A DNA stretch of 64,000 nt, taken from Magnetococcales bacterium. GTDB taxonomy: Bacteria > Pseudomonadota > Magnetococcia > Magnetococcales > Magnetaquicoccaceae. The DNA lies in assembly GCA_015231755.1 (NCBI GenBank), contig JADGAZ010000002.1, forward strand, positions 186,001 through 250,000, read 5' to 3'. Both the position numbers and the translations under genes were made by a program. The notes under the pieces are model-generated. The model saw only the letters and a list, made by a program, of their open reading frames with translations, did no database searches and was not told the origin of the DNA. This document shows positions 34,729-44,563 of this stretch, piece by piece; positions within the stretch are counted from its first letter, which is position 1; each line of letters starts with the position of its first letter.

Positions 34729-36273
34729 ATGAACAATCCAAAACGAGGCGGACGCCCCTGGATCTTTGGCGGCGTGCTGGCCACCATCCTGGTGGGTGCC
34801 AATCTGATGGCCGAAAACGTGATGGCGGTCAGCCAGGTCACTTACGAGAAGTTGCGGGTCTTCTCGGAGGTCTTCTCGCTGATCAAACAGAACTACGTCG
34901 AGGAGGTGGACGAAAAATCCATTCTTTACGGCGCGATACAAGGCATGCTCAAAACCCTGGATCCCCATTCCTCCTTCCTGACCCCGGAACATTTCAAGGA
35001 AATGCGTGTGGATACCCGGGGGGAATTCGGCGGTCTGGGCATCGAAATCTCCCGGGACGACCGGGGCATCCGGGTGGTCTCCCCCATCGAAGACACCCCG
35101 GCTTTCCGGGTGGGCATGAAGTCCGGTGACATCATCGTCAAGATCGACGATGTCAATACCGTGGACATGGACCTCCTGGAAGCCGTCAAAAAGATGCGGG
35201 GCAAACCCGGCTCCAAGATCAACCTGCAAGTGATCCGCAAAGGCGAGAACAAACCGCTGAACTTCACCCTGGTGCGGGCGATCATCAAGATCCGCAGCGT
35301 CAAATGGCGGGAAGAGTCCGGCGGCATCGGCTATGTGCGCATCATCCAGTTCAACGAGCAGACCCAGCCCCTGCTGGAAACCGCCATGGCCGAACTGACC
35401 AAAAAAGCCGAAGGAGGCAAACTCAAGGGCGTGGTGCTGGATCTGCGCAACGATCCCGGCGGATTGCTGGATCAGGCGGTGGCGGTATCCGACGCCTTCT
35501 TGGAAGATGGCCGCATCGTCTACACCAAAGGCCGCATCGCCGGCAAGGATATGTCCTTCGACGCCCAGGCCGGAGACTTGGCCAATGGCGCCCCCATCGT
35601 GGTGTTGATCAACGGCGGATCCGCGTCGGCTTCGGAGATTGTCGCCGGGGCGTTGCAGGACCATCGACGCGCGGTGATCATGGGCACCCAGTCCTTCGGC
35701 AAGGGATCGGTGCAGACCATCATCCCCTTGAACGACGGCTCCGGACTGCGACTGACCACCGCCCAGTACTACACCCCCAATGGACGCTCCATCCAGGCCA
35801 AGGGCATCGCCCCGGATATTCTGGTGGAAGACATCGATGTCAAGGACAAAGACAAGAAAGGTCAAGCCCGTCCCAAGGAAGCGGATCTGAAAGGACATCT
35901 GCAAAACGCCGACGCCGCGACGGAAAAACCCACTCCCGCCGAACCCAACGGAGAAGAGGGCAAATCCGACGCCGATCCCAAAGCCGCACCGGCCAAGACT
36001 CCCGACAAGGACAAAGACAACGCCCCGGAGAAAAAACCCGAAAAGGATTCCTCCTCCCCGGATCAATCCCCGGACAAAGGCTCCAAAAAGGATGACGGCT
36101 CCAAAAAAGACGAAGGCGATGGGGAAACAACCCCCACCGAAGAGGAAAACATCGATCGGGTCACCGGTCACGGCAAACAGGACTACCAGTTGCAACGCGC
36201 CCTGGATCTCCTGAAGGGATTCCAGGTGCTGGAAAGCCGGATCAAAAACAAACCGGCAGGCAGCCGACATTGA
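34729..36273 (+). CDS. ctpA: Carboxy-terminal processing protease (S41 family)
   Basis: The protein has about 514 residues. An N-terminal membrane/signal helix (WIFGGVLATILVGANLMA) precedes a PDZ domain (FGGLGIEISRDDRGIRVVSP). The S41 protease core has the catalytic Ser in GGSASASEIVAGALQDHRRA and Lys in GTQSFGKGSVQT. After the catalytic domain comes an unusual Lys/Asp/Pro-rich stretch (residues ~375-480, such as KAAPAKTPDKDKDN) before a final helix (YQLQRALDLLKGF). The ATG at 34729 has GGGAGA upstream. It overlaps the next gene by 4 bp. Confidence 0.95.
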   Translation: MNNPKRGGRPWIFGGVLATILVGANLMAENVMAVSQVTYEKLRVFSEVFSLIKQNYVEEVDEKSILYGAIQGMLKTLDPHSSFLTPEHFKEMRVDTRGEFGGLGIEISRDDRGIRVVSPIEDTPAFRVGMKSGDIIVKIDDVNTVDMDLLEAVKKMRGKPGSKINLQVIRKGENKPLNFTLVRAIIKIRSVKWREESGGIGYVRIIQFNEQTQPLLETAMAELTKKAEGGKLKGVVLDLRNDPGGLLDQAVAVSDAFLEDGRIVYTKGRIAGKDMSFDAQAGDLANGAPIVVLINGGSASASEIVAGALQDHRRAVIMGTQSFGKGSVQTIIPLNDGSGLRLTTAQYYTPNGRSIQAKGIAPDILVEDIDVKDKDKKGQARPKEADLKGHLQNADAATEKPTPAEPNGEEGKSDADPKAAPAKTPDKDKDNAPEKKPEKDSSSPDQSPDKGSKKDDGSKKDEGDGETTPTEEENIDRVTGHGKQDYQLQRALDLLKGFQVLESRIKNKPAGSRH

Positions 36274-39200
36274 TTGACACACCTTCCCCGAAGCCGGAGA
36301 CCGACGCGGCAGCGACCCCGGAAGCCACTCCGGCGACGGCGAACCCTGCGGCAACCCCCACCCCGCCGGAACCCCTTCCGGCGGCGGTGAACCGCCAGAC
36401 GGCCACCCCGGAAGCCCTGCCGGAGGCAGAGCGCGACACGGACCTCATTCCGGAAGAGATTCCGGACGAGGCGTTCGACGCCGCCTTCATTCCGGAAGAG
36501 ATTCCGGATGAGGCGTTCGATGCCGCCTTCATTCCGGAAGAGATTCCGGACGCAGCGTCCGACCCGGCCTTCAGGCCGGAAGCGTTTCCGGTGACGGCGC
36601 GCCAGGAGATTCCCCTGACCGCGCCGCCACCGGCTCCCGACCCGGCTGAAGACGCGGGACTCCCGGAAGAGAGTTTGGAGGCGGTCAGCCATGCGGCGCG
36701 CCTGCTGGCGTCGATGCCGGAATCCGGCTCCGAGGCCGACGAGCCTCTATCCGACCCACTTCCGGAAGCGACGGACCCCCCGTTTCCGCTCCCGGAACCG
36801 ATCCCGAATCCGGCAGACGGCCTGCTGACGCCATCCGATCCGATGACCGACTGGATCCACGCCCCGGAGCCGACTGCCGCACCCATGGCGCATGGGGAGG
36901 GAACCATCGACCCGGTGTCGCCCCTGGCCCGGGAGCTGTCCAGCGCGACCCCATCTTCTCCCCTGGGGGAGATCCGGGATCCCCAGGCAGCCGACGATTT
37001 CCTCTCCCTGGATCTTGCGGTCCGGCCAACCCCATTTCCGGAAGCCGACCCCTACCCCCGACACGTCGAACCGCCTCCCCCTCGGGAAGAGGTGATGGAG
37101 ATGCTGGAAGAGGATCTGGAACCCGATCCCCCCTCCCGGGAGTGGTGGATCATTCCCCTGGTGGCGGCGCTGCTGCTGTTTTTGGCGGGGATCGGGGCGG
37201 GTCGTTATCTGATTCCCCCTTGGGCCCGGGACACCACCCCCCAGACCGGCGTCAAACCCACGGTGGTGACCATGGCCGGTCCCATGGCCCCCTCGCCGGA
37301 GGCCCAATCCGGCAACTCCGACAAATCCGCCACCATGACGGATGCCGGCTCCCCCCTGTCGGTCAACCCGTCATCCGCCAAACCGGAAAACACCCCGACT
37401 CCGGCGGTCAAAGCCGAAGAGTCCCCGGCCCCGTCCGGCCCCCCTGGCACCGACGCCGACCTCCAGAATCCGCCCACGGACCCGGCCAAAACAACCACCG
37501 CTCCGGGGGAGACCTCCCCCCCGACCGACTCCGCCACCGCCCAGCCCACATCGGACAACGACGGGGAGATCGATCTGCAATACGAGGAGAGCCTGCCCCA
37601 TGAGCCGGTCACCCTGCCCCCTCCCCAGCCCGCCCAGCAGAAGCGCGAAGGGGCGCGGGTGGCGGTGGTGATCGATGATCTGGGCTACAATGTTCCAGTT
37701 TCCCTGGCCATCGCCCGCCTGCCCCACGCCGTCACCCTGGCGATCCTCCCGGGTGGGGACGGCTCCCGTCAGGTGGCGACCATCGGCAAATCGACCCACA
37801 AGGATATCATTCTCCATCAACCCATGGAGCCCATGGGCTATCCCCGCATCAAACCGGGTCCGGGAGCGCTGCTCATGGGCATGGGGGCGGACGAAATCCG
37901 CCCGGTGCTGAAGCACAATCTGGACAAATTCCCGGAAGCGATCGGGATCAACAACCATATGGGTTCCCGCATCACCCAGTACCGCCCGGCCATGGACACG
38001 GTGATGGAGGTCTTGAAAGAGCGGGGACTGTTCTTCCTGGACAGCCGCACCAGCCAGACCAGCGTGGCCTTCGCCCGGGCCAAGAATATCGGGATTCCCG
38101 CCGCCCGTCGGGATGTGTTTCTGGACAACATCCAGCGGGTATCCGCCATCGAGGCCCGACTGGCGGAACTCGAACACATCGCCCGGGTGACGGGTCAGGC
38201 CATCGGCATCGGTCATCCCTACCGGGAGACCCTGACCGCCTTGCAGCACTGGTTGCCCGCCGCCACGAAACGGGGCATCCAGGTGGAAGGCCTCTCCCAT
38301 TTTCTCACTCCCGGAGAAAGCCGCCCCCGGACCGCTCCGGAAACCCGCCGGGAACAGCCGGACAAGGCCACCGAAACCGACAAGTCCTTCAAACTCAAAA
38401 GCGAAACCTCCCTGGTCAAGCCAACCCCGTCCGGTGGAAGCCCGGCGGCCCACCCCCGTTCGGAACCCCCCCTGCCGATTCCGACGACACCGCCGCAGCC
38501 CGAACCTTCCACGGCCAGCCCACAGCCCAGCATCCCGGCTCCGACGCCCCCCAACGAAAGCCCGGCCCCGGTTTCCATGCCCCTCAACCCGGTCCCGCCG
38601 CCCCCCCACGCAAGCCCCATCCCGGCGGCGGCGTCCACCCATACCAGCCCGGCCCCGGCGATGGGGACCAACAGTCCGGCTCCGGTACCTCTGTCCCCGA
38701 CCCTGGCTCCGGCCCCGTCTTCGACTCCAGGCACCACCCCGGTGGCGGGGAGCAGCAGCCCGACCCCGGCGCCTCTGTCCCCGATCCTGGCTCCGGCCCC
38801 GTCTTCGACTCCAGGCACCACCCCGGCGATGGGGAGCAACAGCCCGGCACCGGTACCTCTGTCACCGATCCTGGCTCCGGCCCCATCTTCGACTCCAGGC
38901 ACCACCCCGGCGGCGGGGAGCAGAAGCCCGACCCCGGCACCCTCCAGCCCGGCCCTGATCCCGCCGATCACAAGTCCGATTGTGGCCCCGGCGATCCACG
39001 CGCCCGCCGAACCGCCCCAAAGCGCCAACCCGGTGGCCTCCCCGCAAGCGGCGCCATCCGCCCCGGTGAAAGCGCCCCCTTCGGCCTCCCACGCCAAGAG
39101 TCCGCCCCAGACGCCGACCGCCAAAAAACCTGCCGCGACCCCGACCAGCAAAAAACCGGCTCCGGTGGCCGCCCAGGCCAAAAAGCCGGCTCCGGCTCCC

Positions 39201-39368
39201 ACCCAGACCAAAAAACCGGCTGTGGTGAACACCTCCTCCCCCTCCCGGACTCCGGCGGTGGGACACAAACCGGCCACGGCGCCAGGGGATAACGATCAAA
39301 CCTGGACCGCTCCCCCCGTGCTCCACGATCCGCTGGAGTATGTGTTGCCGGTGGATCCGAACCCTTGA
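36270..39368 (+). CDS. Divergent polysaccharide deacetylase (YibQ family) with long repetitive tails
   Basis: The 1032-residue protein has a deacetylase-like core at residues ~465-680: ARVAVVIDDLGYNVPVSLAI, HQPMEPMGYPRIKPGPGALL, GINNHMGSRITQ, GLFFLDSRTSQTSVA and GQAIGIGHPYRETL. A membrane anchor lies at about residues 293-313 (IIPLVAALLLFLAGIGAGRY). The N-terminal 290 residues are acidic/Pro-rich, with a 14-residue repeat. The C-terminal 340 residues are Pro/Ala/Ser/Lys-rich with three 28-residue repeats; typical family members are about 250-400 residues. The start is TTG 36270, overlapping the ctpA stop. The envC-ctpA-yibQ order suggests a cell-envelope role. Confidence 0.85.
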   Translation: MIDTPSPKPETDAAATPEATPATANPAATPTPPEPLPAAVNRQTATPEALPEAERDTDLIPEEIPDEAFDAAFIPEEIPDEAFDAAFIPEEIPDAASDPAFRPEAFPVTARQEIPLTAPPPAPDPAEDAGLPEESLEAVSHAARLLASMPESGSEADEPLSDPLPEATDPPFPLPEPIPNPADGLLTPSDPMTDWIHAPEPTAAPMAHGEGTIDPVSPLARELSSATPSSPLGEIRDPQAADDFLSLDLAVRPTPFPEADPYPRHVEPPPPREEVMEMLEEDLEPDPPSREWWIIPLVAALLLFLAGIGAGRYLIPPWARDTTPQTGVKPTVVTMAGPMAPSPEAQSGNSDKSATMTDAGSPLSVNPSSAKPENTPTPAVKAEESPAPSGPPGTDADLQNPPTDPAKTTTAPGETSPPTDSATAQPTSDNDGEIDLQYEESLPHEPVTLPPPQPAQQKREGARVAVVIDDLGYNVPVSLAIARLPHAVTLAILPGGDGSRQVATIGKSTHKDIILHQPMEPMGYPRIKPGPGALLMGMGADEIRPVLKHNLDKFPEAIGINNHMGSRITQYRPAMDTVMEVLKERGLFFLDSRTSQTSVAFARAKNIGIPAARRDVFLDNIQRVSAIEARLAELEHIARVTGQAIGIGHPYRETLTALQHWLPAATKRGIQVEGLSHFLTPGESRPRTAPETRREQPDKATETDKSFKLKSETSLVKPTPSGGSPAAHPRSEPPLPIPTTPPQPEPSTASPQPSIPAPTPPNESPAPVSMPLNPVPPPPHASPIPAAASTHTSPAPAMGTNSPAPVPLSPTLAPAPSSTPGTTPVAGSSSPTPAPLSPILAPAPSSTPGTTPAMGSNSPAPVPLSPILAPAPSSTPGTTPAAGSRSPTPAPSSPALIPPITSPIVAPAIHAPAEPPQSANPVASPQAAPSAPVKAPPSASHAKSPPQTPTAKKPAATPTSKKPAPVAAQAKKPAPAPTQTKKPAVVNTSSPSRTPAVGHKPATAPGDNDQTWTAPPVLHDPLEYVLPVDPNP
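36447..36572 (+). repeat. 42-bp tandem repeat in the yibQ-like gene
   Basis: Three units of 42 bp start at 36447, 36489 and 36531 (the third diverged), encoding IPEEIPDEAFDAAF. All are in frame. Confidence 0.9.
38671..38922 (+). repeat. 84-bp tandem repeat in the yibQ-like gene
   Basis: Three nearly identical 84-bp units contain CTGGCTCCGGCCCC at 38703, 38787 and 38871. They encode 28 residues each (LAPAPSSTPGTTP core). The in-frame length makes unit number variable without loss of reading frame. Confidence 0.9.
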
Positions 39369-40690: not shown

Positions 40691-42034
40691 ATGAGATCGG
40701 AACGGTTGACCACCGAATTGACCCGCATCCGGGCGTTGCTGGAAGAGCCTCAACCCGATTTGCGGGGTGCCTTCATGGCGGCCCGGGAGCTGCTGACCCG
40801 AGGTCCATGCCTGCGGGAGCTGGCGGAAGTGAAAGAGGCGGCCATGCTGATTCTGGAGCGTCTGACCCTGCCGGCCCTGGCCGGAGAGCGGGAAAAACAG
40901 CTTCAGGTGAGCAAACTGATTCGCGCCGTGCGCCGGGCCGAACGTCTGGAGTCCGAGGAGTTGGAACCTTTGGTGGCGGAGCTGGCCCCCTGGATCGAGG
41001 AGGCGGCCACCCGTGGACGACATCGGGAGCCGTTGCCGACCTTTGCCCCGGAGTTGGCCATTCAGGCTCTGCAGGCACTGGAAGCCTGGGACAAGGGGGA
41101 AGAGGAGGAGGCTCCTGTGGTGGTGTTGTCCTCGGGAGGGGGACAGACTCCGGCCAATCTCCAGTGGCACGACCTCTACCGCCGCCTGGGACGGATCATC
41201 ACCACCGAGCATCGCCGACGGGCCTCCTGGGCGCGGGAGCGCAAGGGAATGACCGACGCGGTGGCGGTATTGGGCGCGGATCTGGTGGAAGCTTCGGCGT
41301 TGATCGGTCGCAAGGACGGGGCGAACGCCAGTTGGGCACACGGCCTGAGCGACGAGGTGTTGACCCGCCCCGACACGGTGATGGCGGCATTGCTGGCCGA
41401 GGAAAAAGGCTACTGGGCCCGGGTCACGGAGTTGGAAACCGCTCTGGCCCGGAGTCAGGAGGTGGTGGGACAGTTTCAGAATCTGCTGCGCCGGGCGGAA
41501 AACGCCCTGATGGCCTCCCGGGACGAAACCCTGGTGGATACCTCCACCGGTCTGCCCAACCGTTTCGCCTTTCTGGCACGGCTGGCCCGGGTCATGGAAC
41601 CCCTCCCCGGAGAGAAACGACCACCCCGCCTATTTTCGGTGATGTTCATCCGGGTGGACGAATACGACGAGATGACCCGCTCCCTGGGTCGGGAACGGGT
41701 CACCCAGGTAATGTCCGCCCTGGCGGCCCGCATGACCACCCTGCCGGGACCGGAAGAGTATCTGGCCCGCTGGAGCGAAGAGTGTTTCGCCCTACTGTGC
41801 CCCGGCTCCGACGGTGCCGCGGCCATGGCCCTGGCCCATTCCATGCACGCGAGCCTGGGCCGGGAACGCTACGAACTCAACGACGCCCTGGTGATCCTGC
41901 GTCTGGGCTTCGGGGTGGTGCCCTGGATCGACGGCCTCACCGACGAGCGACTGCTGGGACTGGCGGAACTGGAGTCCAAATCGGCCCTGGCAGAGGAGTC
42001 CCAACCCGTGCGACTGGCGGATCCGCGGGTGTGA
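40691..42034 (+). CDS. Degenerate GGDEF-domain protein II
   Basis: The 447-residue paralogue-like neighbour starts 14 bp after protein I, with GAGGGGAGA upstream. The N-terminal helical part (RAFMAARELLTR-type repeats, AKLIRAVRRAERLESEEL-like segments) matches protein I in style. The GGDEF fold starts DTSTGLPNRFAFLARLAR. The signature position reads WSEECFALLCPG and the metal-site region RVDEYDEMTRSLGRE, so catalysis is unlikely. There is no membrane segment and no EAL domain. The two proteins may form a heteromeric regulatory unit (inference). Confidence 0.8.
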   Translation: MRSERLTTELTRIRALLEEPQPDLRGAFMAARELLTRGPCLRELAEVKEAAMLILERLTLPALAGEREKQLQVSKLIRAVRRAERLESEELEPLVAELAPWIEEAATRGRHREPLPTFAPELAIQALQALEAWDKGEEEEAPVVVLSSGGGQTPANLQWHDLYRRLGRIITTEHRRRASWARERKGMTDAVAVLGADLVEASALIGRKDGANASWAHGLSDEVLTRPDTVMAALLAEEKGYWARVTELETALARSQEVVGQFQNLLRRAENALMASRDETLVDTSTGLPNRFAFLARLARVMEPLPGEKRPPRLFSVMFIRVDEYDEMTRSLGRERVTQVMSALAARMTTLPGPEEYLARWSEECFALLCPGSDGAAAMALAHSMHASLGRERYELNDALVILRLGFGVVPWIDGLTDERLLGLAELESKSALAEESQPVRLADPRV

Positions 42035-42059: not shown

Positions 42060-43100
42060 ATGTTACACAAAATCAAACTGGAAAAATTCACGGCTTTTGA
42101 ACATCTTGAAGTCACATTTTCCAGCGGCCTCAATATTCTGATCGGCGCCAACGGCACGGGCAAAACCCATATCCTCAAAGTACTCTATGCCGCGTGCGAC
42201 ATCACCAAGAGCAAAAAAAGTCTCGCCGAGAAAATCAACAAGGTCTTTCTGCCCTCCGGAGAACAGATCGGTCGCTTGGCCAAACGCAAGACCGTGAGTA
42301 CGGAAGGATCTGTGGAAGTGGTCCGCCATGTCAATACGCCACCCAAGCCGATCGCGATCCGCTTGAGACTCTCCAATCACACCAAGACACCCGACAAGGC
42401 AACCGTTTCCGGGGCCTCCAAACAGTGGTTGGCCCATCCTTTGGAGTCGGTCTATATTCCGGTGAAGGATATGATGGCCAACGCTCCCGGTTTTCGCTCC
42501 TTGTATGAATTGAGAGATATTCATTTTGAAGAAATTTATGCGGATATCATCAGTCGCGCCTCGCTTCCCCTGCTCCGGGGCGGCGTGGATACCCCGCGCA
42601 AGAGTCTGCTGGAAATCTTGCAAAAGGCCATGAATGGCAAGGTCATTCAAAAGAACGAAGAATTTTTCCTCAAGAATGAACAAGGGGAGTTGGAGTTCAC
42701 GTTGCTGGCCGAGGGGATGCGCAAACTGGCCCTGCTTTGGCTCCTGATTCAAAATGGCACGCTGCTGCAAGGTTCGGTGCTGTTCTGGGATGAACCGGAA
42801 ACCAATCTGAACCCGCGCATCATGAAAACCATCGTGGCAATCCTGCTGGAACTGCAACGCATGGGGGTGCAAATTTTCCTGACCACCCATGACTACATTA
42901 TTCTCAAAGAAGTGGATCTGCAAACCCGTCCCGGTGACGCAATCCTGTATCACAGCCTCTACCGGGATCCGGAAACTCATGAAATCCAGGCAACCCAGGC
43001 CAACCACTATCTGGAGATCGCCCACAATACCATCGATGAAGCCTTTGGCGACATGATGGATCGGGATATCGTCAAGTCCATGGGCACACTGGGCCGATGA
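42060..43100 (+). CDS. AAA-15/OLD-like ATPase, candidate defence protein
   Basis: The 346-residue SMC/ABC-like ATPase has KIKLEKFTAFEHLEVTFSSG at the N-terminus, Walker A GANGTGKTH (residues 29-37), signature region LLAEGMRKLALL and Walker B LFWDEPETNLNP. The switch histidine is in FLTTHDY. There is no TOPRIM domain, unlike full OLD nucleases. Such stand-alone ATPases are common in two-gene antiphage systems. The next gene starts within its stop codon (ATGA). Base composition is visibly lower in GC than the flanks, a sign of transfer. Confidence 0.85.
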   Translation: MLHKIKLEKFTAFEHLEVTFSSGLNILIGANGTGKTHILKVLYAACDITKSKKSLAEKINKVFLPSGEQIGRLAKRKTVSTEGSVEVVRHVNTPPKPIAIRLRLSNHTKTPDKATVSGASKQWLAHPLESVYIPVKDMMANAPGFRSLYELRDIHFEEIYADIISRASLPLLRGGVDTPRKSLLEILQKAMNGKVIQKNEEFFLKNEQGELEFTLLAEGMRKLALLWLLIQNGTLLQGSVLFWDEPETNLNPRIMKTIVAILLELQRMGVQIFLTTHDYIILKEVDLQTRPGDAILYHSLYRDPETHEIQATQANHYLEIAHNTIDEAFGDMMDRDIVKSMGTLGR

Positions 43101-43627
43101 AGATCACGGCGGATGGGTTCGATTTTGATTTTACAGATGCCATCGACGTGTTTGTCTTTGACGAAAAAGATAAAACAAAACCCGGTTATCACGATGCGCA
43201 GATGATGAAGGCGGTCGATCTGATTGTGGAGTTGCAGGAGTGTTATCTGTTTGTCGAAATGAAAGATATTTTCGATACAGACCGCTATACCCAATCACAA
43301 GAAAGGAATCCCTGCCCCAGAGACCCCTGCCAGTGCCCCCAGGAGTCAAGTCCGTTCAAGCGGTTGAAAGAACTATTAAAATACAAATTTCGCGACACTT
43401 ATCTGTTTCGCCATGCCGAACAGAAAGTGGACAAGCCGATTCGCTATATTTGTCTGCTGACCTTTGAAAATGCCTTCAACCTCCATATGCAAAAAACGCT
43501 TCAGCAGGAGTTGCCGGTGGGCCGGGTCTCCCGCCGCTGGCAATTGGGATTTGCTGAAAGTTGTGCAGTCGTTCATGTGGCCGCATGGAATCGCCTTTTT
43601 CCCAAGTGGCCGGTGCGTCACGCCTGA
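43097..43627 (+). CDS. Putative PD-(D/E)xK-like partner of the AAA ATPase
   Basis: This 176-residue protein matches no family that I recognise. An Asp41 in MKAVDLIVELQE and Glu54-Met-Lys56 in LFVEMKDIFDT are spaced like the D...ExK core of restriction-type nucleases. A hydrophobic strand RYICLLTFE follows. A short Cys/Pro insert (NPCPRDPCQC, residues 71-80) is unusual and might bind metal. It is translationally coupled to the ATPase. The nuclease reading is an inference from motif spacing only. It ends 15 bp before the convergent PleD-like gene. Confidence 0.55.
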   Translation: MKITADGFDFDFTDAIDVFVFDEKDKTKPGYHDAQMMKAVDLIVELQECYLFVEMKDIFDTDRYTQSQERNPCPRDPCQCPQESSPFKRLKELLKYKFRDTYLFRHAEQKVDKPIRYICLLTFENAFNLHMQKTLQQELPVGRVSRRWQLGFAESCAVVHVAAWNRLFPKWPVRHA

Positions 43628-43642
43628 AACCGGGTCCGGGCC

Positions 43643-44563
43643 TCACGCCACCTCCAGAAACGCCACCCGGTTGCGACCGCCGCGTTTGGCTAGGTACAGC
43701 GCCTGATCGGCCTGACCGATCAAATCCACGGACTGTCTTTCCAAAGTGGGAGTCATGCAGGCGATGCCGATGCTCAAGGTGACATGCCCGGCGGCTTTGG
43801 AGGCCGCATGGGGGATGGCCAAGTCGCTGACGGCCTTCAGGATGCGTTCGGCCACGGCGCGTCCGCCGGCCAGAGTGGTTTCCGGCAGGACACAGGCAAA
43901 CTCCTCGCCGCCATAACGGGCCGCCAGATCGATGGTCCGGGGCATGGCCCGCACAATGGCTCCCGCCACCTGACGCAAACAGTGATCCCCGTGGGTGTGA
44001 CCGTAATAATCGTTGAAAAGCTTGAAAAAATCGATATCCATCAACAGCAGGGAAAACGGGTGACCGTAGCGCATGGAACGGAACCACTCGTACTCCAGAA
44101 ACTGATCGAAGCGCCGTCGGTTGGGAATGCTGGTCAGACCATCCAGAATCGCCAACCGCTCCAGCATGTCCCCGCGGCGTTTCAGTTCGATGTGGGTCTT
44201 GACCCGGGCCAACACGATCGCCGGACGGTAGGGCTTGGCGATGTAATCCACCGCGCCAGCGGCAAATCCCCGGATCTCGTCCGACTCGCTGATGCTGGCG
44301 GTGATGAAAATCACCGGAATATCACGGGTGCGGGGCTGGTTCTTGAGACTTTCACACACCTCGAAACCGTTCATTCCCGGCATCACCACATCCAGCAGGA
44401 TCAAATCCGGCAACGGTTGACTCTCCAATCGCTGGAGGGCCATTTCACCGCTCTTGGCCGCCACCACCCGGTAATGCGGTTTGAGCAATCCGGACAACAC
44501 ATCGATATTGACCGTCTCGTCGTCCACGATCAACACCTTGGGACGACTCTCTTCCTGCTGCAT
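43643..44563 (-). CDS. Response regulator with active GGDEF domain (PleD-like)
   Basis: The 306-residue protein has a receiver domain (residues 9-125: VLIVDDE, phospho-Asp in LILLDVVMPGMNGFEV, KPYR lysine) and a GGDEF domain. The latter has DGLTSIPNRRRFDQFL, MDIDFFKLFNDYYGH and the catalytic ARYGGEEFACVLPE. It should synthesise c-di-GMP when phosphorylated. The partner kinase is not adjacent. It is monocistronic on the minus strand; the upstream gap holds repeat copy F. Confidence 0.95.
   Translation of the reverse strand: MQQEESRPKVLIVDDETVNIDVLSGLLKPHYRVVAAKSGEMALQRLESQPLPDLILLDVVMPGMNGFEVCESLKNQPRTRDIPVIFITASISESDEIRGFAAGAVDYIAKPYRPAIVLARVKTHIELKRRGDMLERLAILDGLTSIPNRRRFDQFLEYEWFRSMRYGHPFSLLLMDIDFFKLFNDYYGHTHGDHCLRQVAGAIVRAMPRTIDLAARYGGEEFACVLPETTLAGGRAVAERILKAVSDLAIPHAASKAAGHVTLSIGIACMTPTLERQSVDLIGQADQALYLAKRGGRNRVAFLEVA

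Follow-up and report, generated by a model that had tools for sequence, protein, structure and literature searches.

The gene pair hec-02A and hec-02B, located within the 64,000-nucleotide stretch of Magnetococcales DNA analyzed here (the window), is a member of HEC-02, a candidate defense family catalogued in PADLOC-DB, and represents a free-standing copy found outside BREX. By analogy with known ATPase-effector pairs such as PARIS and Septu, the two proteins probably form a stand-alone module in which HEC-02A (A) senses infection and licenses the predicted nuclease HEC-02B (B), with abortive infection as the outcome. The pair is a real and coherent defense candidate whose family has already been named and whose class of pairs has already been described. 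HEC-02 has been catalogued, and as far as we could find its mechanism seems unexplored in the literature. New to this analysis are a predicted active site in B (D41/E45/E54/K56), the position of the relatives within BREX loci, the free-standing state of the window copy, and evidence that a lobe of A is exchanged between loci.

The initial annotation had described two overlapping open reading frames of lower GC at 42060-43627, placed between two c-di-GMP genes, and all of these observations held (Table 1). Both frames are on the forward strand, GC content over the pair was 0.47-0.53 versus about 0.60-0.67 in adjacent windows, and GGDEF domains were observed on both sides. The start of A lies 25 bp from the stop of the upstream GGDEF gene, and 15 bp separate the end of B from the 3' end of the convergent response-regulator/GGDEF gene. 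Direct (att-like) repeats flanking the pair were not found, and promoter and terminator scans around it gave output no better than chance. Among the loci fetched by B, the exact 4-base overlap was kept in nearly all relatives, and A was observed directly upstream of B in every relative whose upstream sequence is present, the exceptions to the pairing being one locus with a broken B frame (L029) and one in which the contig data begin just before B (L026). This pairing is far beyond chance.

Table 1. Coordinates of the HEC-02 genes, their motifs and their flanking genes in the window.
Feature	Position	Strand	Basis
Upstream GGDEF gene	40691-42034	+	PF00990, 5e-15
hec-02A, OLD/SMC-type ABC ATPase, 346 aa, without nuclease domain	42060..43100	+	PADLOC, Pfam, AlphaFold, Foldseek
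Walker A of A, GANGTGKT, residues 29-36 (K35)	42144..42167	+	G29, N31, G34, K35 invariant in 27 homologues
Middle lobe of A (residues 46-210, approximate), variable; candidate sensor	42195..42689	+	Identity, replacement in homologues
ABC-signature-like AEGMRK of A, residues 217-222	42708..42725	+	A217, E218, G219, R221, K222 invariant in 27 homologues
Walker B of A, WDEPE, residues 243-247 (D244, E245)	42786..42800	+	W243-P246 invariant, E247 nearly, in 27 homologues
H-loop of A, H277 (TTHD)	42888..42890	+	Invariant in 27 homologues
C-terminal end of A (residues 281-346, approximate), candidate for B docking	42900..43097	+	L010/L011 DNA breakpoint; inference
ATGA shared by the A stop and the B start (translational coupling)	43097..43100	+	Sequence
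hec-02B, predicted PD-(D/E)xK nuclease, 176 aa	43097..43627	+	PADLOC, conserved residues, AlphaFold
D41 of B, predicted metal ligand, strand 37-45	43217..43219	+	D in 40/41 homologues
E45 of B, second conserved acidic residue, strand 37-45	43229..43231	+	E in 40/41, D in 1/41
E54-M-K56 of B, ExK motif, strand 50-58	43256..43264	+	E54 41/41; K56 40/41 (R in 1)
NPCPRDPCQC of B, lineage-specific variable loop	43307..43336	+	Window and L002 only; pLDDT < 50
Downstream convergent response regulator plus GGDEF gene	43643-44563	-	GGDEF, 1e-50

The nearest relative of the pair (L002, JADGBT010000020.1, with matches identical to those of G006:C27) encodes proteins 96% and 92% identical to A and B. Neither BrxC nor PglZ had a match in the window genome (97.8% complete), and a search with one BrxC model (PDLC02489) gave no match in its ten congeners (11 congeneric genomes in all). 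Since its neighbors are ordinary, the context of the window copy gives no direct evidence of defense for this copy. The upstream GGDEF gene was present in most congeners without a HEC-02 pair downstream, and one pair-free congener (G003) had both flanking GGDEF genes on the same stretch, with 3.2 kb of unrelated genes between them, so the site between the GGDEF genes is variable. Together with the GC difference, the G003 site points to acquisition of the pair before the split of the window species and G006. We also considered a c-di-GMP-linked or other housekeeping module, as the 25 bp to the upstream GGDEF gene make co-transcription possible. This role is highly improbable given the pair-free congeners, the other genes at the G003 site and the distinctly lower GC of the pair; furthermore, relatives elsewhere mostly have BREX neighbors, and no GGDEF association was observed in other lineages among the loci mapped.

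Two observations around this site were made by eye. The intergenic site in G003 (L074:1600-4800) contains YidD-like and peptidoglycan amidase-like open reading frames. In the window, the center of a 1032-aa open reading frame at 36270-39368 (+) looks like a divergent polysaccharide deacetylase and is flanked on both sides by very long Pro/Ala/Thr-rich tails with near-repeats.

Protein A matched the PADLOC HEC-02A model (PDLC04213) over nearly its whole length (8.8e-125, residues 1-342 on 1-335 of 337), and further matches were observed to AAA_21 (9.5e-24) and AAA_15 (6.6e-16) in Pfam and to the AriA model of PARIS (2.7e-24). The best Foldseek match of its AlphaFold model (pLDDT 85.7, pTM 0.87) was Septu PtuA (8eea, 5e-16), followed by retron PtuA proteins, including that of retron Eco7, and then by SMC and Rad50 heads. 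Searches of A revealed neither a Toprim nor any other nuclease domain, its chain stopping after the ATPase lobe and a single helix, and all ATPase motifs were nearly invariant in 27 homologues, in agreement with the earlier description of a complete SMC-type ATPase without its own nuclease. Conservation was uneven along the chain, with a mean identity of 0.37 in the middle lobe versus 0.63 in the N-terminal part and 0.60 in the C-terminal part, and in some homologues the middle lobe has been replaced while B is retained.

Protein B had been thought to belong to no recognized family, a claim we could not uphold, as it matched the PADLOC HEC-02B model (PDLC04229) at 8.8e-57 (residues 1-174 on 1-166 of 171). 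It seemed unrecognized because neither Pfam nor NCBIfam holds a model matching B, and no significant match was obtained in Pfam, NCBIfam or PDB sequence searches. The D...ExK spacing first noticed in the sequence was confirmed across 41 homologues (Table 1) in the order VDxxxE-x8-ExK, and D22, V40, E54 and K97 were invariant in this set at identities down to 23%. Position 41 is N in one homologue and position 56 is R in one, and given these substitutions some HEC-02B members may be inactive. The AlphaFold model of B (pLDDT 79.5, pTM 0.75; five models spanning 66-80 pLDDT), which rests on 28 sequences, places strand 37-45, strand 50-58, helix 86-107, strand 115-121 and helix 125-138 in succession. 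Foldseek returned no significant match for this model (best E 0.05), with a weak list including Can2, Avs3, the Nt.BspD6I nickase and EcoO109I, all of which we take to carry PD-(D/E)xK nuclease domains. The motif order and the topology of the model fit a PD-(D/E)xK nuclease, which is the fold we predict for B.

The NPCPRDPCQC insert of B, which had been singled out as unusual, found no support as a meaningful feature. It is a poorly conserved loop whose counterpart in L002 reads CPRENRQC, so that even there only some of the cysteines are kept, and it is absent in other homologues; the loop is probably without function. A zinc site was rejected given the non-conserved cysteines and the low confidence of the loop (pLDDT < 50). 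Viral relatives of B were observed neither by Foldseek against viral models (no significant match) nor by a scan with a closer alignment, and B had no match in phage records and one plasmid match only, at 33% identity.

The name HEC denotes an Hma-embedded candidate, with genes lying between those of the Hma (helicase, methylase, ATPase) defense system, and comes from Payne et al. 2024 (bioRxiv 2024.01.29.577857), as later papers describe (PMC12111858, PMC11411939, PMC12988326). Whole-length model matches for both proteins, together with a gene order and overlap as in the relatives, place the pair in HEC-02, whereas the window copy lies outside both Hma and BREX and the family is named for its embedding. 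Embedding is a criterion of discovery and not a property of the proteins, and is no bar to membership. With Septu (PtuA/PtuB) and retron Eco7/Ec78 the pair shares the two-gene ATPase and nuclease layout, PtuA being the nearest solved structure to A. PtuB of Septu is an HNH-type nuclease, and an HNH nuclease is also named in the retron I-A structures matched by A; profile searches gave no PtuB/HNH match for B. The PARIS system likewise encodes a separate ABC ATPase (AriA) together with a small nuclease effector (AriB), but AriB is a Toprim nuclease cutting tRNA (PMC11455837) whereas B is of the PD-(D/E)xK type, and AriA chains in the PDB are 464 aa long compared with 346 aa for A. B had no AriB or Toprim match, and only HEC-02B families were matched. 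OLD nucleases and Gabija GajA have a related ABC ATPase head, but carry a C-terminal Toprim nuclease on the ATPase chain (PMC10568477), whereas A ends with the ATPase. The component classes of the pair are also those of the OLD-ABC plus PD-(D/E)XK pairs known from BREX and BREX-related loci, which Rakesh and Krishnan 2026 proposed as back-up effectors (PMC12839542); HEC-02 relatives occur in BREX between brxC and pglX, whereas no BREX core gene was detected in the window genome.

To describe this context we fetched 29 loci encoding close relatives of B and left out the orthologue L002, resulting in 28 loci that were chosen by sequence similarity and are phylogenetically non-independent. On representative loci, BrxB, BrxC, PglX and PglZ were assigned with PADLOC, and phmmer then served to map them to the others. 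Twenty of the 28 relatives were observed in BREX loci, 17 exactly between brxC and pglX and three adjoining one of these genes; the 17 include L012, whose neighbors on either side are two pglX halves with brxC next. By record title, the hosts of the loci belong to Pseudomonadota, Thermodesulfobacteriota, Chlorobiota and Planctomycetota. The remaining eight had no BREX gene in the stretch examined, and several of these lay beside GlnD, PPDK-like and ABC transporter genes. Homologues are not consistently in housekeeping contexts, a minority including the window copy being free-standing with ordinary neighbors. Across 100 sampled relatives, HEC-02A matches were observed in 25 and HEC-02B matches, with the closest B model, in 15; most genes after other HEC-02A copies in related genomes were judged B-like from their motif or by eye. 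The initial proposal of a two-gene defense candidate with an ATPase and a PD-(D/E)xK-type protein is supported by the PADLOC HEC-02A/B matches, the conserved D..E..ExK residues, the compatible AlphaFold topology, the likeness to PtuA and the embedding in BREX.

The two proteins appear not to share a single history along their whole length. Over 26 loci, the identity of B correlated with that of the C-terminal part of A at r = 0.62 versus r = 0.35 for the middle of A. Between the Desulforhopalus (L010) and Aeromonas (L011) loci, B was 89% identical, the C-terminal part of A 78% and the middle of A 32%. DNA identity between these two loci was mostly 43-67% at the end of brxC, 72-87% over the start of A and the Walker A region, and 17-57% in the middle of A; a sharp breakpoint follows at about codons 290-305, beyond which identity was again 83-92% over the rest of A, across B and into pglX. 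In control pairs with similar B identity (L010/L006 and L003/L008), the middle of A was about as conserved as the remainder. Simple co-inheritance of A and B was rejected, since constraining the B data to keep the first A clade together cost 81 log-likelihood units (AU p = 1e-5), although B is short and the clade tested had been picked by comparing A. In light of the sliding-window analysis and the DNA comparison, the reading of a whole-protein swap was narrowed to replacement of part of A. We read these patterns as the replacement of most of A in some loci, with the last part of A and B kept; for the older splits in A, rapid divergence without recombination is a less likely alternative.

A variable part of A joined to a nearly constant A end and B would suit a swappable sensor attached to an effector that stays the same, and the comparison identifies parts of A that are candidates for a sensor lobe and for an effector-docking end. 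In the simplest functional reading, the exchanged part of A would read the trigger while the kept end would dock the effector. Tentatively, this could extend to a general guard, in which recombination swaps the sensor (the first two-thirds of A, middle lobe included) and keeps the C-terminal end and B, so that a new trigger is joined to the same killer and the module is able to leave BREX and work alone, as it would in Magnetococcales; we consider this possible, somewhat short of an even chance. The diversifying lobe also bears on whether HEC-02 is a toxin-antitoxin addiction module, in which A neutralizes B, the pair is kept mainly since its loss is lethal, and defense is a side effect. The tight ATGA coupling and near-constant pairing of A and B would suit such a module, and PARIS, a functional analogue, has been described as a toxin-antitoxin system (PMC11455837). 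We nonetheless consider it improbable, as full ATPase motifs and a diversifying lobe are needless for mere neutralization, and the relatives occupy one fixed BREX position and not mainly mobile elements, with the single plasmid match and no phage match for B.

In the mechanism we favor, sensing by A followed by licensing of B, HEC-02A would act as a dimer or higher oligomer that either restrains HEC-02B in an inactive state or positions it. An infection signal, such as a phage DNA-mimic or anti-restriction protein or an aberrant DNA end, would be detected by the variable lobe of A (roughly from Walker A to the signature), and an ATP-driven rearrangement of A would then license or release B. 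Using the metal site D41-(E45)-E54-x-K56, B would cut DNA or, less likely, tRNA, and this cleavage would stop phage production through abortive infection. Inside BREX operons the module would provide a back-up effector, and the window copy would act without BREX; its free-standing state implies that BREX is dispensable or that another partner takes its place. Natural copies outside BREX make the stand-alone function of a BREX-embedded back-up module directly testable. The gene pair, family membership, ATPase and nuclease residues, BREX embedding, lack of detected BREX core genes and exchange of the A lobe were computed, and we infer by analogy that B is an active nuclease, that A inhibits and activates it, and what its trigger, target and abortive outcome would be. 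The PARIS precedent is a hexamer of AriA that holds AriB sequestered until Ocr brings about its release (PMC11455837).

We also considered that HEC-02 may be an auxiliary restriction device. In that case, A would scan DNA like SMC/Rad50 and B would nick or cut invading DNA directly, without cell suicide. PD-(D/E)xK enzymes are mostly DNases, which makes DNA the likelier target and would also suit a restriction device, as would the likeness of A to SMC, Rad50 and PtuA and the adjacency of the relatives to the methylase PglX. However, the free-standing copy has no neighboring methylase for self/non-self discrimination and a DNA-recognition domain was found in neither A nor B, and we regard restriction without suicide as rather unlikely.

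Several additional observations were made on the relatives and their BREX loci. In Pseudomonas mandelii (L012:5135-10451), two open reading frames matching the N-terminal (2-596) and C-terminal (604-1170) halves of PglX lie on either side of the embedded HEC-02 pair, so that pglX is split around it. In L010 (9960-11200) compared with L013 and L011, pglX contains a sharply exchanged segment, with DNA identity down to about 35-57% between flanks that are highly similar; such exchange was also seen when identity of the HEC-02 genes was as high as 93-99%, and is expected for a swapped target-recognition region. Damaged-looking HEC-02 copies, with B frameshifted or truncated or A split, were observed in L089 (G002:C107), L034/L048 (G001:C90), L016 and L029, which suggests turnover of the system. 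A gene with Schlafen AlbA_2 and HATPase_c_4 domains and a winged-helix end lies directly upstream of HEC-02A in BREX at L006:5024-6793, and also in L007, L008, L009 and L015, giving two stacked embedded modules in those loci. Finally, more distant HEC-02A copies in Magnetococcales relatives (L105-L110) have another kind of small gene after them, marked by an 'AEFLLLR...WIVEAKSS'-like motif, which may represent another branch of PD-(D/E)xK-like effectors.
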